Source of the DNA: Prosthecobacter sp.
GTDB taxonomy: Bacteria > Verrucomicrobiota > Verrucomicrobiia > Verrucomicrobiales > Verrucomicrobiaceae
DNA length: 64,000 bases
NCBI GenBank assembly: GCA_019186985.1
Contig: JABARQ010000024.1
Location: 62,001 to 126,000, forward strand
Direction of reading: 5' to 3'
This document shows positions 22,666-27,844 of this stretch, piece after piece. Every line of letters begins with the position of its first letter. Within the stretch, counting starts at the first letter, position 1. Below the pieces are notes generated by a model. That model ran no database searches. It saw only the letters and a list, made by a program, of their open reading frames with translations, and was not told where the DNA came from. The position numbers and the translations under genes were made by a program.

Positions 22666-23580
22666 GTGGCCTCCCCGTTTTTCACCTTCGACCAGCTTCA
22701 CAACTTTCCCGTCCTCACGCCTCCGGCAAGACTCGCGGTCATTGGCGACCCGATCGCACACTCCAAGTCACCCCAGATGCACAACCCCGCCCTCATGGCG
22801 AGGGGTATCGAGGCGCAATATGTCCGGGTCCAGGTGCCCGTGGGCCATGTGAGGGAGGCGTTCAGGCTTTTCGCAGACCAGGGGTTTCTGGGGGTCAACA
22901 TCACCATCCCTCACAAGTTTGAAGCGCTCGACGCCGTCGATGTCGTCGACCCGCTGGCCGCCCGCCTGGGGGCGGTCAACACCCTGGCGATCCGCGAAGG
23001 CCGTCTTTATGGTTATAACACCGACGGCCCCGGCTTCCTTCGCAGCGTCAGGGAGGCTTTTGGGACGGAGGTCAGGGATCTGCGGGTCCTGATCCTTGGA
23101 GCGGGAGGAGGCGCAGGACGTGCCGTGGCGGTGCAGTGCGTTCTTGCAGGCTGCCGCCATCTGCTTCTGGCCAACCGCACGGAATCCAAGCTGGCCGCCC
23201 TGCTGGATGAGCTCCGGTCCCTCACCACCGAAGCTGTCGCGCTGGAAACATGCAGCCTTGATCACGGGCAGCTGGCAGCACGCCTTGTCGGCGTCGATCT
23301 TGTCGTCAACGCCACCTCGGTCGGCATGAAGGATGGAGATGCGCCTCTTCTGCCCGCAGGCGCCCTCGAAGACCGCCACCTCGTTTATGACATGGTCTAT
23401 CGCGCCAGCGGCCCGACCGAGCTCATCCGGCAGGCGGCCGGTGTGGGGGCCAGGCATGCCGACGGCATGTGCCTGCTGCTGCACCAGGGCGCCATTTCAT
23501 TTGAACATTGGTTCGGCGGCGAAGCCCCCCTGGAAGCCATGCGGACCGGCTTGATGACGACTCTGGCCGCCCTTGCCTGA
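22666..23580 (+). CDS. aroE: Shikimate 5-dehydrogenase
   Basis: A 304-aa NADPH-dependent enzyme that reduces 3-dehydroshikimate in the chorismate pathway. Key motifs are IGDPIAHSKSPQMHN (substrate pocket), NITIPHK (catalytic Lys), GAVNTLAI, YNTDGPGF (catalytic Asp) and the nucleotide loop ILGAGGGAGRAV. The C-terminal DMVYR and G..LHQGA are as expected. No ATG lies at a sensible place: the first in-frame ATG falls after the HSKSP motif. I therefore start at the GTG at 22666, which gives about 20 residues before the first beta strand. TTG at 22660 is an alternative. It is 71 bases downstream of the esterase gene and upstream of the nusA leader. Confidence 0.9.
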   Translation: MASPFFTFDQLHNFPVLTPPARLAVIGDPIAHSKSPQMHNPALMARGIEAQYVRVQVPVGHVREAFRLFADQGFLGVNITIPHKFEALDAVDVVDPLAARLGAVNTLAIREGRLYGYNTDGPGFLRSVREAFGTEVRDLRVLILGAGGGAGRAVAVQCVLAGCRHLLLANRTESKLAALLDELRSLTTEAVALETCSLDHGQLAARLVGVDLVVNATSVGMKDGDAPLLPAGALEDRHLVYDMVYRASGPTELIRQAAGVGARHADGMCLLLHQGAISFEHWFGGEAPLEAMRTGLMTTLAALA

Positions 23581-23673: not shown

Positions 23674-23701
23674 TTGCCTAATCAATCCCGCGTTTTATTG
23701 T
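23674..23701 (+). promoter_or_regulatory. Candidate sigma-70-type promoter for the nusA operon
   Basis: TTGCCT (23674-23679) and TATTGT (23696-23701) separated by 16 bases, each matching four of six consensus positions. This would give a leader of about 80 bases that contains the terminator-like hairpin at 23739-23767. A weaker alternative is TTAACC at 23630-23635 with GATAAA 17 bases downstream. Confidence 0.4.
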
Positions 23702-23738
23702 CTGAACTTCCTTTCCCGGGCCTTGTTTGTTTTGTCGT

Positions 23739-23767
23739 GAGAGTGGGGTGCGCCCCGCTCTCTTTTT
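23739..23767 (+). terminator. Intrinsic terminator hairpin in the nusA leader
   Basis: Arms GAGAGTGGGG and CCCCGCTCTC form a 10-bp stem with one G-U pair and a four-base UGCG loop, followed at once by five T residues. It ends 22 bases before the nusA ATG, too close for a separate nusA promoter after it. Transcripts entering nusA probably read through it. It therefore looks like an attenuator, or a leaky terminator of aroE transcription. Confidence 0.75.
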
Positions 23768-23789
23768 GTCTGGGGATGGATCGATTTTT

Positions 23790-25049
23790 ATGACCTCGGA
23801 ACTTAAAGCATTATTCGACTACTACGAGAGGGAGAAGGGCATTGACCGCGACCGCATGGTCGAGGTGCTCTCCCAGGCTCTCCTCGCGGCCTCGAAGAAA
23901 AGCATCGGCCCCGCGCGCGAGCTGCGCATCGACATCGACCCCGACAAGGGCACCATCCGTGCCTTTGCCAAGCTCATCGCCGTCGAGAAGGTGACCAATC
24001 CCTTCGAGGAAATCCCCCTGGACAAGGCCCTGAAGCGCAAGAAGGACGCGCAGCTCGGCGACGAGATTGAACTTGAGGTGACGCCGCAGAACATGGGCCG
24101 CATCGCCGCCCAGACCGCCAAGCAGACCATGATGCAGCGCGTGCGCATGGCGGAGAAGGAAAACCTTTACGACGAGTTCAAGGACCGCACCGGCGACATC
24201 GTCAACGGCACCATCCGCCGCTTCGACAAGAGCGACGTCATCGTGGACCTTGGCAAGTTCGAGGGGGTCATGCCTAACAAGGAGCGTGTCTCCACCGAGG
24301 AATACACCATCGGCGACCGCATGAGGTTTTACGTCAAGGCGGTGGAGAAGGAAGGCGCCCGCGGGCCGGAAATCGTCCTCAGCCGCGCCCATGTGAACTT
24401 CGTGCGACGGTTGTTTGAATTTGAGGTGGCCGAGATCGGCGACCGGACCGTGGAAATCTCCAGCATCGCGCGTGAACCCGGCTACCGGACCAAGGTGGCC
24501 GTGCACAGCGCCGACAGCAAGGTGGACCCGGTGGGCGCCTGCGTGGGGCTGAAGGGCAACCGCGTCAAGAACATCGTACGCGAACTGAACAACGAGAAGG
24601 TGGACATCATCCGCTGGTATGCGGACCCCGTCGAGTTCATCAAGGAGGCCCTGAAGCCCGTCAAGGTGCTGAGCATCCAGCTCTCCCCGGACAAGAAGGC
24701 GGCCCGCCTCACCGTGCGTGAGGACGAACTCTCCAAGGCCATCGGCCGCCGCGGCCAGAACGCCCGCCTGACCTCGCGCCTTGTCGGCATGGAGCTTCAG
24801 ATCGAACGCGACGAGCACGCCGAGGAAGTCTTTGAAGGACAGATGGACCATGCCGCGCAGGACCTTGTGAAGACCCTCGGCCTCAACCTTGAAACCGCCC
24901 GCAAGCTTGTCATGGGCGGCATGGGAGACCTCCAGGTCCTCCGTCAGGTCGACGTCGAGGATGTCATCGACGCCCTCGCCGGTGATGAACAGCTGGCCCG
25001 CCAGGTCTTCGAACGCATCCAGTCCTACACCCCCACCTCCGGAGAGTAG
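23790..25049 (+). CDS. nusA: Transcription termination/antitermination factor NusA
   Basis: A 419-aa NusA that binds RNA polymerase and nascent RNA, promoting pausing, termination or antitermination. Domain order: N-terminal polymerase-binding domain (residues 1-~125), S1 domain (GDIVNGTIRRFDKSDVIVDLGKFEG, about 135-200), then two KH domains including DPVGACVGLKGNRVKNIVREL and LSKAIGRRGQNARLTSRL. A single helix-hairpin-helix-like segment ends the protein (LETARKLVMGGMGDLQVL), shorter than the double acidic repeat of E. coli. The start at 23790 (MTSELKALFDYYEREKG) is the conserved family start. It is the first gene of nusA-infB-rbfA. rimP, which usually precedes it, is absent here, and aroE is upstream. 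Confidence 0.96.
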   Translation: MTSELKALFDYYEREKGIDRDRMVEVLSQALLAASKKSIGPARELRIDIDPDKGTIRAFAKLIAVEKVTNPFEEIPLDKALKRKKDAQLGDEIELEVTPQNMGRIAAQTAKQTMMQRVRMAEKENLYDEFKDRTGDIVNGTIRRFDKSDVIVDLGKFEGVMPNKERVSTEEYTIGDRMRFYVKAVEKEGARGPEIVLSRAHVNFVRRLFEFEVAEIGDRTVEISSIAREPGYRTKVAVHSADSKVDPVGACVGLKGNRVKNIVRELNNEKVDIIRWYADPVEFIKEALKPVKVLSIQLSPDKKAARLTVREDELSKAIGRRGQNARLTSRLVGMELQIERDEHAEEVFEGQMDHAAQDLVKTLGLNLETARKLVMGGMGDLQVLRQVDVEDVIDALAGDEQLARQVFERIQSYTPTSGE

Positions 25050-25130: not shown

Positions 25131-27425
25131 ATGCCTCCTCGTTCCTCCTCATCAAAAACCAGCAAAGCCAGCCCCGACAGCGAGACCGCTGAAGTGGAAG
25201 AGCTTGAGAGCGCCACCTCGGCCAAGAAAACGGCCAAGAAAAAGGAGGTGCTTTCACTGATTGATGAAGAGAAGCCCAAGGCCAAGGCCGCCACGAGGAA
25301 GCCGGCCAGCGCCCTGCCAGCCCTCGGCGCCAAGCCGGCAGCGGCCCCCGAGCCCCAGACTTCCACTTCCGAGCCTGAATCCTCGGAACCTGCCAAAAAG
25401 ACGGTCGACGACCAGAAGAAGGAGGCCCTGAACCTTTTCGAAGAAGACGAAAAGCCCAAGGTCAGGCGTGCCCGCCCAGTTGAAACCGCCGCAACCACGG
25501 CCCTCCCCCCCATCTCAAGGCTGAAGGAGGCCGGACCCGTCACAGGCCCGGTGGCTGCGCCCGTTGTTGCTCCAGCCGTCCCCAAGCCCGCCCCCGTGGA
25601 GGCGGGCCAGCCCGAATACGAGACCAATGAGGCAGGCGAAAAGATCATCCACCTCAAGCCGCCCATCATTGTCAAAGACCTGGCCGAAAAGATGGGCCTG
25701 CGGCCCTTCAAGGTCATCGCCGACCTCATCAACCTGAAGGTTTTCGTCGCCAACGCCGACAAGGCCATCGAGCTCGACGTGGCGGAAAAAGTCTGTGAAA
25801 AGCATGGCTTCCGCCTCGAACGCGAGAAGCGTGAAAAGGGTGCCGGCGTTCACAAGGTTGAGGAAGTCATTGTCGAACCCCCCGCTCAGGTCGTCGAGGA
25901 GATCGCCGAGGAGAAGCTTGAACTGCGCGCCCCGATCATCACGTTCATGGGACACGTCGACCATGGCAAGACATCCCTCCTCGACGCCATCCGCAAGACC
26001 CAGGTCACCCATGGCGAGGCCGGCGGCATCACCCAGCACATCGGCGCCTACTCCGTCTTCCATGAAGGCAAGCCGATCACCTTCATCGACACCCCCGGTC
26101 ACGCCGCCTTCTCGGGCATGCGCGCCCGCGGCGCCAATGTCACGGACATCGTCGTCCTCATCATCGCCGCCGACGACGGCATCATGCCGCAGACGCGCGA
26201 GGCCCTGAACCACGCCAAGGCCGCAGACGTGCAGCTCATGGTCGCCATCAACAAGTGCGACCTGCCTGCGGCGAATGTCATGCGCGTGAAGTCCCAGCTC
26301 CAGGAACTCGGCCTCATGCCGGTGGACTGGGGTGGTGAAATCGAGTGCATGGAGGTCTCCGCCAAGACCGGCCAGGGCATTGACAACCTCCTCGAAACCA
26401 TGGCCCTGCAGGCCGAGGTGCTTGAGCTCAAGGCGGATCCCAAGGCTCCTCCCCGCGCCACGGTCATCGAGTCCAGCATGGTGCCGGGCAAGGGCCCCGT
26501 GGCCACCGTCATCGTCCGCCAGGGCACCCTGAAGGTCGGCCAGCCCTTCATCTGCGGACCGCACTGGGGCAAGACCAAGGCCCTCATGGACGACCGCGGA
26601 CAGCCGATCAAGGAGGTGCGCCCCGGCATGCCCGTCGAAGTCGTCGGCTTCAGCGACATGCCCCGCGTTGGTGACGAAGTCGTCGTCATGGACAGCGAGC
26701 GAGCCGTCAAGAAGCTCAGCGAGGAACGCCTCGAAGAAGCACGTCAGGCCAAGCTTGTCACCCGCCGCCGCGCCACCATGGAGGACCTCTTCGCCAACAT
26801 CGAGGAGGGCCAGAAGAAGGTCTTCAAGGTCGTGCTCAAGACCGACGTGCATGGCTCGCTGGAGGCCATCACCAAGTGCCTCACCGACATCGAAAGCGCG
26901 AAGATCAACCTGCGCATCCTGCACAGCGACGTCGGCCCCATCACCGAATCCGACGTGCTGCTCGCCTCCGGTTCGGACGCCGTCATCATCGGCTTCAACA
27001 CCAAGGTCGAGAACAAGGCCCTCAGCACCGCCCGGCGCGAAGGCGTCCAGATCAAGCTCTACTCCATCATCTACGAGCTCATCGACCAGGTGAAGGAGGC
27101 CATGACCGGCATGCTCGACCCGCTGACGCGCGAGAAGATCCTCGGCCACGCCAAGGTGAAGCAGGTCTTCAAGGTTCAGAAGGGCTGGGTGGGCGGTTCA
27201 CAGGTCATCGACGGCCGCATCGACCGCAAGCAGCGCGCCCGCGTGCTGCGTGACGGACAGGCGGTCTATGACGGCAGCATCGAGACCCTGCGCCGCTTCC
27301 AGGACGAGGTGCCCGAGGTCCGCAACGGCCTCGAATGCGGCATCAAGCTCCATGGCTTCAGCGACTACGAGGAAAACGACATCATCGAGTGCTACGAGCT
27401 CGAGAAGATCCCGCAGGCCCTCTGA
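25131..27425 (+). CDS. infB: Translation initiation factor IF-2
   Basis: A 764-aa GTPase that recruits initiator tRNA to the 30S subunit and promotes subunit joining. An acidic, Lys/Pro/Ala-rich N-terminal region (1-~165) is low complexity. The IF2-N-like domain ([26 protein letters not shown]) is followed by the G domain starting near residue 274: G1 [10 protein letters not shown]3 DTPGH, G4 NKCD, then domains II-IV. The fMet-tRNA-binding C-terminal domain ends [12 protein letters not shown]. Length is shorter than E. coli IF-2 (890 aa), mainly in the N-terminal extension. It follows nusA by 81 bases and precedes rbfA by 44, the conserved operon order. Confidence 0.96.
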
Positions 27426-27469
27426 CCTGCGGACGCGGCCCCCTTCACCATCATCCGTCCTCCCCTGCG

Positions 27470-27844
27470 ATGTCCCAGCGCCTTGACCGTGTGAACGAAC
27501 TCATGAAACGCGAGCTCAGCACCGTGCTTGAGCGCGGCTATCGTTTTGAAGGCGTTGTTCTCACCGTCCATGAGGTCGTCACAGCCCCGGACCTGCGCCA
27601 GGCCAGCGTCTGGGTCGGCATCCTGGGCAGGGTGCATGATGAGGCGGCCCTGATTGAAAAGCTCAACAAGGAGAAGGGCAGCATCCAGCGCGAGCTCTAC
27701 AAGCGTGTGAAGCTGAAGCACAGCCCCCAGCTTCTCTTCCGGCTCGACAAGAGCATCGAGCGCGCCGTCAGCCTGATCAACACCCTCGACAACCTGCCGC
27801 CTCCGCTGCCGGATGAAGAACAGCCGTCTTCGGAGCCCGCCTGA
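27470..27844 (+). CDS. rbfA: 30S ribosome-binding factor A
   Basis: A 124-aa KH-fold ribosome maturation factor that binds the 30S subunit and assists 16S rRNA 5' end processing. The N-terminus SQRLDRVNELMKRELSTVL and the closing HSPQLLFRLDKSIERAVSLINTLDNL (compare the family's P.L.F..D.S) are typical. I start at ATG 27470 because it gives the standard N-terminus. An upstream extension would overlap infB. Last gene of the nusA block; mlaE follows after 63 bases. Confidence 0.93.
   Translation: MSQRLDRVNELMKRELSTVLERGYRFEGVVLTVHEVVTAPDLRQASVWVGILGRVHDEAALIEKLNKEKGSIQRELYKRVKLKHSPQLLFRLDKSIERAVSLINTLDNLPPPLPDEEQPSSEPA

Follow-up and report, generated by a model that had tools for sequence, protein, structure and literature searches.

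A candidate transcription attenuator of the rimP-leader kind directly upstream of nusA in Prosthecobacter and other Verrucomicrobiota

An intrinsic terminator that lies immediately before a nusA gene raises the question of whether it ends the transcript of the preceding gene or attenuates nusA itself and, in the latter case, of which factor reads it. We examined such a hairpin in a 64,000-nt stretch of Prosthecobacter sp. DNA (contig JABARQ010000024.1; hereafter the window, with positions counted from its first letter). The gene order around the hairpin is aroE (ORF end at 23580), 209 nt of non-coding DNA, nusA, infB and rbfA. The features of the locus, in order of position, are as follows.

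23674..23701, + strand: candidate σ70-like promoter TTGCCT-N16-TATTGT (−35, 23674–23679; −10, 23696–23701); 8/12 consensus, conserved position
23709..23721, + strand: putative outer helix P1, 5′ strand (TCC and TTCCCGGGC); MFE fold, cognate pairing
23739..23748, + strand: terminator stem P2, 5′ arm GAGAGTGGGG; sequence, terminator scan, conservation
23749..23752, + strand: loop TGCG; read from the sequence
23753..23762, + strand: terminator stem P2, 3′ arm CCCCGCTCTC; sequence, terminator scan, conservation
23763..23767, + strand: T-tract TTTTT of the intrinsic terminator; sequence, terminator scan
23768..23780, + strand: putative outer helix P1, 3′ strand (GTCTGGGGA and GGA); MFE fold, cognate pairing
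23790..25049, + strand: nusA (TIGR01953, 386 bits against a cut-off of 253.4)
25131..27425, + strand: infB, encoding IF-2 (TIGR00487)
27470..27844, + strand: rbfA (TIGR00082; start placed from the family match inside ORF 27335–27844)

The original prediction had described a 10-bp stem, a four-base loop and five T's ending 22 nt upstream of the nusA ATG (23790), and the letters read exactly as claimed; one of the ten pairs is U·G. A terminator scan of 11 kb returned 10 terminator-like sites where 9.0 (sd 3.2) would be expected. By itself the pattern is therefore not significant, and the hairpin gains its significance from conservation. P2 is the sole 10-pair site among the ten. The 85-nt leader, which runs from the probable transcription start to the ATG, has a predicted fold of −34.6 kcal/mol compared to −21.9 (sd 2.8) kcal/mol for its shuffles, none of 200 being as low; the MFE of a wider, 181-nt region around the hairpin is not exceptional (z −0.64). 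The 5.9-Mb genome contains a single match to GAGTGGG-N3-8-CCCGCTC and two matches to the reversed control pattern.

Conservation of the hairpin and its attachment to nusA

Of 96 relatives, 92 have a NusA match, as do 140 of 144 genomes sampled from the whole phylum. We collected 157 upstream regions, of which 69 are from the 92 close relatives with a NusA match (L012, with 42 nt upstream, was omitted) and 88 from the 140 genomes of the phylum draw (L072 was omitted as a duplicate of L048, and the last 60 were hand-picked across genera); the regions are not independent, as 41 come from one genus. A hairpin with a T-tract precedes nusA in 141 of the 157 regions, and in 123 the 5′ arm of this terminator contains GGG and the 3′ arm CCC, compared to 30 and 5, respectively, of 474 dinucleotide shuffles, which were made with six loci in the orientation opposite to that used for the 141 and the 123. 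The GGG/CCC terminator is present in 66/69 close relatives and 57/88 regions of the phylum draw, and in the 123 leaders that carry it the T-tract starts a median of 30 nt (range 22–115) before the ATG. At the thresholds used, no hairpin was detected in 16 of the 157 regions; visual inspection shows a variant hairpin in four of these (L060, L073, L102, L139), and the remainder may be truly without one.

For genus g1, that of the window, 48 genomes were searched and 41 leaders were long enough, all of which carry a 9–10-bp stem containing GAGTGGGG/CCCCGCTC and have 26–30 nt between the stem end and nusA. The leader of Akkermansia muciniphila contig L202 matches the leaders of family f2. Two further observations concern the surroundings and the letters of the stem: in many leaders of the phylum the stem is followed by TTTTTTGTCT or a near variant of it (23763–23771 in the window), even where an outer helix is not evident, and four class members (L077, L079, L112, L114) have a stem GTGGAAAC...GTTTCCAC instead of GGG/CCC at the same place before nusA.

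Within the genus, 8 of the 9 predicted pairs never vary (41-row alignment, mean column identity 72%), which leaves almost no covariation to test, and the covariation of the stem across relatives to which the original prediction had looked emerges from the wider set. Among 69 non-redundant leaders, the first pair outside GGG is T·G in 31, T-A in 19, C-G in 10, G-C in 8 and A-T in 1, where the eight G-C pairs represent anchor shifts (about eight GGGG stems are anchored one base off). The next pair outward is mostly G-C or A-T, and the one beyond it mostly A-T, G-C or C-G. As the pair types change and the pairing holds, the fold is kept while its letters change. Furthermore, the near-fixed sequence of the GGG/CCC stem suggests that its letters are read by a protein or by the polymerase and do not serve folding only.

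A plausible promoter upstream of the hairpin, also part of the original prediction, has a candidate at a position that is conserved across leaders. The site matches 8 of 12 consensus letters, and is thus absent from the 9-of-12 scan list; its score of 8 (on a scale of 12 letters with a bonus of 0.5 for a 17-nt spacer) makes it weaker, but it is placed as in the rest of the genus. In 89 non-redundant leaders, the best σ70-like site upstream of the hairpin has a mean score of 8.7 compared to 4.7 for shuffles, lies above its own-shuffle mean in 87 cases and reaches 9 in 53, and its −10 box ends a median of 36.5 nt (middle half 32–44) before the stem. Transcription of the window's leader would be expected to start near 23704–23706. 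In five leaders of family f4 (L056, L058, L064, L066, L067), the −10 box ends 14–19 nt before the stem, so that the hairpin would be nearly the first thing transcribed.

The hairpin is a good intrinsic terminator about 160 nt past the aroE stop codon, and as such it could be a plain terminator of aroE that insulates nusA, which would then have a separate promoter. This reading, which we hold to be extremely unlikely, was rejected because aroE is not found in the 69 other loci (tblastn, 1e-5) while the hairpin stays; the only aroE among the 70 fetched nusA loci, some of which include little upstream DNA (e.g. 277 nt for L006 and 42 nt for L012), is the window's own. The promoter-like site on the 5′ side of the hairpin at a conserved spacing and the gap of only 22 nt from the T-tract to the ATG also speak against it. 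The assignment of the terminator to the nusA leader, in turn, is well supported by the conserved promoter spacing, by linkage to nusA and not to aroE, and by the rimP-leader signature described below, and the hairpin is very likely a leader attenuator of nusA.

Relationship to the rimP-leader and the distribution of RimP

The rimP-leader, the most ubiquitous attenuator of the survey by Naville and Gautheret (2010, PMC2965389), is described there as a terminator that precedes rimP-nusA-infB and whose GGGc(...)gCCC stem is strongly conserved. The window hairpin is like it in being an intrinsic terminator with a U-stretch in the leader of a nusA-infB operon, in having a GGG...CCC stem of high sequence conservation, and in its placement, the 22 nt after its T-tract falling within the 4–130 nt from hairpin to gene start given for the rimP-leader (PMC2965389). 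It is unlike the rimP-leader in that (i) it lies directly on nusA with no rimP between them, and none was found in the phylum genomes searched, (ii) the window's genus does not have the inner c...g, its stem reading GGGG...CCCC, and (iii) it has a partly supported outer helix in Verrucomicrobiaceae, whereas the description in PMC2965389 reports neither a larger conserved element nor an antiterminator for the general rimP-leader. A second, upstream terminator with an antiterminator is described there for some Gammaproteobacteria. As the rimP-leader is defined by rimP-nusA-infB and the window has nusA-infB-rbfA with no RimP found, we file the hairpin as a rimP-less variant; judged by its sequence, it is a known kind of element.

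In E. coli K-12, a GGGC...GCCC stem and seven T's precede rimP. This metY-rimP-nusA leader resembles that of the window in its stem, its T's and the short way to the next gene, and differs in being longer and tRNA-containing, in an extra terminator-like hairpin before the stem and in the presence of rimP. The Rfam covariance models gave no family for the window at gathering score; three hits came up at E ≤ 10, none of them to the rimP-leader (presumably RF01770). An exact-pattern scan of GTDB genomes found at least 115 loci, names being given for 80 of them, and the matches listed are mostly alphaproteobacterial, along with Verrucomicrobiota, Clostridia and others. Among the matches listed with more than 1100 nt downstream, 88 of 100 are followed by a same-strand nusA at a distance of no more than 1100 nt; the other 12 are without a nearby nusA, and some of these resemble ordinary terminators with an A-tract.

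HMM searches with RimP_N (PF02576) gave no match in the 96 relatives or in the 144 phylum genomes, all of which are at least 90% complete, and the search with RimP_C (PF17384) gave none in the 144; in each RimP search 10 of 14 control genomes matched, and with RimP_C 8 of these 10 exceeded the cut-off. Outside the phylum, the hairpin stands directly before nusA in L227 (Oscillospiraceae) and L210 (Elusimicrobiota). The genomes of both are without a RimP_N match, and they are possible further cases of rimP loss with the leader kept. In the search to which these two belong, which counted matches anywhere in 14 genomes of unstated completeness, RimP_N matched all five genomes with another gene between the hairpin and nusA (L163, L186, L213, L268, L271) and none of seven Verrucomicrobiota genomes.

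The hairpin seems to have outlived rimP. Because it is kept where RimP is not found, we argue that its function does not depend on RimP, which leaves NusA as the simplest reader. The 2010 description considers NusA the likeliest reader and RimP an alternative, and leaves the choice undecided for this very widespread leader (PMC2965389). A hairpin on nusA in a phylum without detectable RimP is a natural test of the two; it argues against RimP as the effector and points away from it as the reader. The absence of RimP is HMM-based, and a divergent RimP below detection would weaken this case.

A possible outer helix

In the MFE fold, P2 is flanked by the strands of the putative outer helix P1, the 3′ strand of which covers the purine-rich stretch before nusA. 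In family f1, duplexes formed with the cognate partner have a mean energy of −18.06 kcal/mol compared to −16.26 kcal/mol for non-cognate ones, and none of 5000 permutations is as low (48 leaders, with L043 and L046 dropped; the later permutation test kept every hairpin leader). Cognate against permuted pairing in the family at six settings gave 0 to 6 of 4000 permutations as low, and thinning to 7–21 leaders gave 1 to 6. Among the controls, the upstream promoter segment gave 3 to 86 of 4000 and equalled P1 itself in one setting, that of 7 genus leaders; the 20 nt that follow downstream gave 1 and 17 before thinning and 186 to 1880 after it; and a nusA coding segment gave 237 to 1733. As these controls are partly positive, shared ancestry accounts for part of the cognate signal. 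RNAalifold of the genus alignment found P2 only and no P1.

P1 as a general feature across phyla was rejected, the outer duplex being no better than that of control terminators against shuffles. Its mean z is −0.42 in Verrucomicrobiota (64 non-redundant of 123 leaders), −0.23 in rimP leaders among the matches listed, mostly Rhizobiales (26 of 74), −0.75 in the other listed pattern matches (11 of 12) and −0.65 in control terminators (31 of 32). In a fold test in which P2 and the 3′ side were held fixed and only the 5′ flank was shuffled, a leader passing if it beat 95% of its shuffles, the outcome was mixed: 1 of the 14 family leaders passed, along with 20 of the 71 from the rest of the phylum, 3 of the 26 rimP leaders and 0 of the 31 controls; the window's own leader fails, 8% of its shuffles being as low. 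We regard P1 as a possibility that is partly supported in Verrucomicrobiaceae and not in general. A genuine P1 would cover the stretch immediately ahead of the nusA start in read-through mRNA. Leaders L023 and L027 each contain an inverted repeat (TGATGCCCG/CGGGCATCA and TGATACCCG/CGGGTATCA, respectively) that links the promoter spacer with the stretch after the hairpin, and it is altered on both sides between the two genomes.

A model of NusA feedback and its alternatives

Combining these results, we propose the following model for the leader of nusA-infB-rbfA, which we consider probable: the hairpin is a transcription attenuator of the rimP-leader kind, by means of which NusA exerts negative feedback via termination. 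Transcription would start near 23705, and RNA polymerase would make about 60 nt before the GGG/CCC hairpin forms in its exit channel and a fraction of the complexes stops in the U-tract. Polymerase-bound NusA would promote hairpin formation and pausing, so that more NusA would mean more stopping and less nusA mRNA. In Verrucomicrobiaceae, the outer helix might in addition tie up the region from the U-tract to the start codon in the read-through mRNA. Sequence comparison shows the hairpin, the U-tract, the promoter position, their conservation and the attachment to nusA. We infer NusA as the regulator from feedback in other bacteria and from the retention of the hairpin without RimP; NusA feedback at the hairpin is likely on these grounds, and termination at this site, its stimulation by NusA and the resulting setting of the NusA level are to be read as parts of the same inference.

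The original prediction had noted that nusA operons elsewhere are autoregulated through leader terminators, and this agrees with published findings for B. subtilis (PMC12288461) and with proposals made for E. coli and S. agalactiae. In B. subtilis, NusA stimulates termination in its own leader in an autoregulatory manner (Mondal et al. 2016, via PMC12288461), and the window would share with this nusA-operon leader both the terminator before the gene and the direction of control. In E. coli, NusA represses the operon (cited in PMC2965389), and operon transcripts rise in mutants with reduced NusA termination (PMC6511841). In S. agalactiae, transcription of rimP-nusA terminates 31 nt after the start site, giving a short and a long RNA from one start, a pattern that is interpreted as NusA feedback (PMC4448216); this leader, too, is very short and has an intrinsic terminator. 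The NusA effect was measured in B. subtilis and there is RNA-seq evidence in S. agalactiae (PMC4448216), whereas the window, judged by sequence, contains the parts that such a feedback loop would need; furthermore, rimP is present in both, as the first gene (ylxS) in B. subtilis (PMC2965389). The rimP leader is also listed among the ProQ-associated sRNAs that derive from attenuators (PMC5391140). Our literature searches brought up no published transcript end or NusA effect for a Verrucomicrobiota leader; transcription start sites are available from a study on Akkermansia (PMC4782308). Being very short and simple, Verrucomicrobiota leaders are suited to direct tests of NusA feedback on termination.

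Other readings accept the hairpin and assign it a different signal or a different level of action. An attenuator of nusA could respond to cold-shock RNA chaperones, NusG, Rho, or IF-2/RbfA: E. coli metY-nusA-infB is cold-induced and has several terminators and promoters (PMC6511841), a fusion of the E. coli rimP 5′ UTR and ORF is expressed at a lower level in a Rho mutant (PMC7815308), and the candidate antiterminators of some relatives would allow for a further factor. We find such a signal distinctly unlikely, since it is NusA feedback that has been published or proposed for the equivalent operon in other bacteria. A mainly post-transcriptional role, in which the P1–P2 structure would hide the ribosome-binding region or provide an RNase III or stability site, would fit the low fold energy of the 85-nt leader compared to its shuffles, the stronger outer pairing with the cognate partner in the family and the fact that E. 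coli RNase III cuts between metY and rimP (PMC5371410). It is, however, very unlikely in our judgement: the outer duplex of leaders across the phylum does not exceed that of control terminators in strength; with P2 fixed, the single family representative of 14 that beats 95% of its shuffles is not the window's; and a purely post-transcriptional element has no need of the conserved T-tract beside the hairpin. The preferred reading, NusA feedback through termination, can also be taken further, to a GGG/CCC stem that would be a RimP-independent, sequence-specific sensor of NusA-bound polymerase, retained in three phyla that would each have lost rimP independently, to which Verrucomicrobiaceae would have added an outer helix that represses the read-through mRNA; this bolder version we consider unlikely.

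Antiterminators were sought as upstream stretches whose pairing with the 5′ arm of the terminator is stronger than in 95% of 40 shuffles. By this measure there is no supported antiterminator in the window's own leader, and a general antiterminator was rejected, with passes in 12 of 83 leaders, 3 of 26 rimP leaders and 4 of 31 controls. In family f9, which we take to be Opitutales, five leaders (L124, L128, L129, L132, L133) have an upstream TTCACTTT-like stretch, reading CTCACT in L133, that can pair with the 5′ arm AAAGTGGGC; in these rows no more than 5% of 40 shuffles reach equal pairing, and the stretch is a candidate antiterminator. In the rimP leaders L167 (Rhizobium sp.) and L179 (Mesorhizobium sp.), an upstream AAATTCTT can pair with AAGAGT, the 5′ arm of the terminator, with none of 40 shuffles scoring as high in either leader, and AAATTCTT recurs in many Rhizobiales rows among the matches listed.
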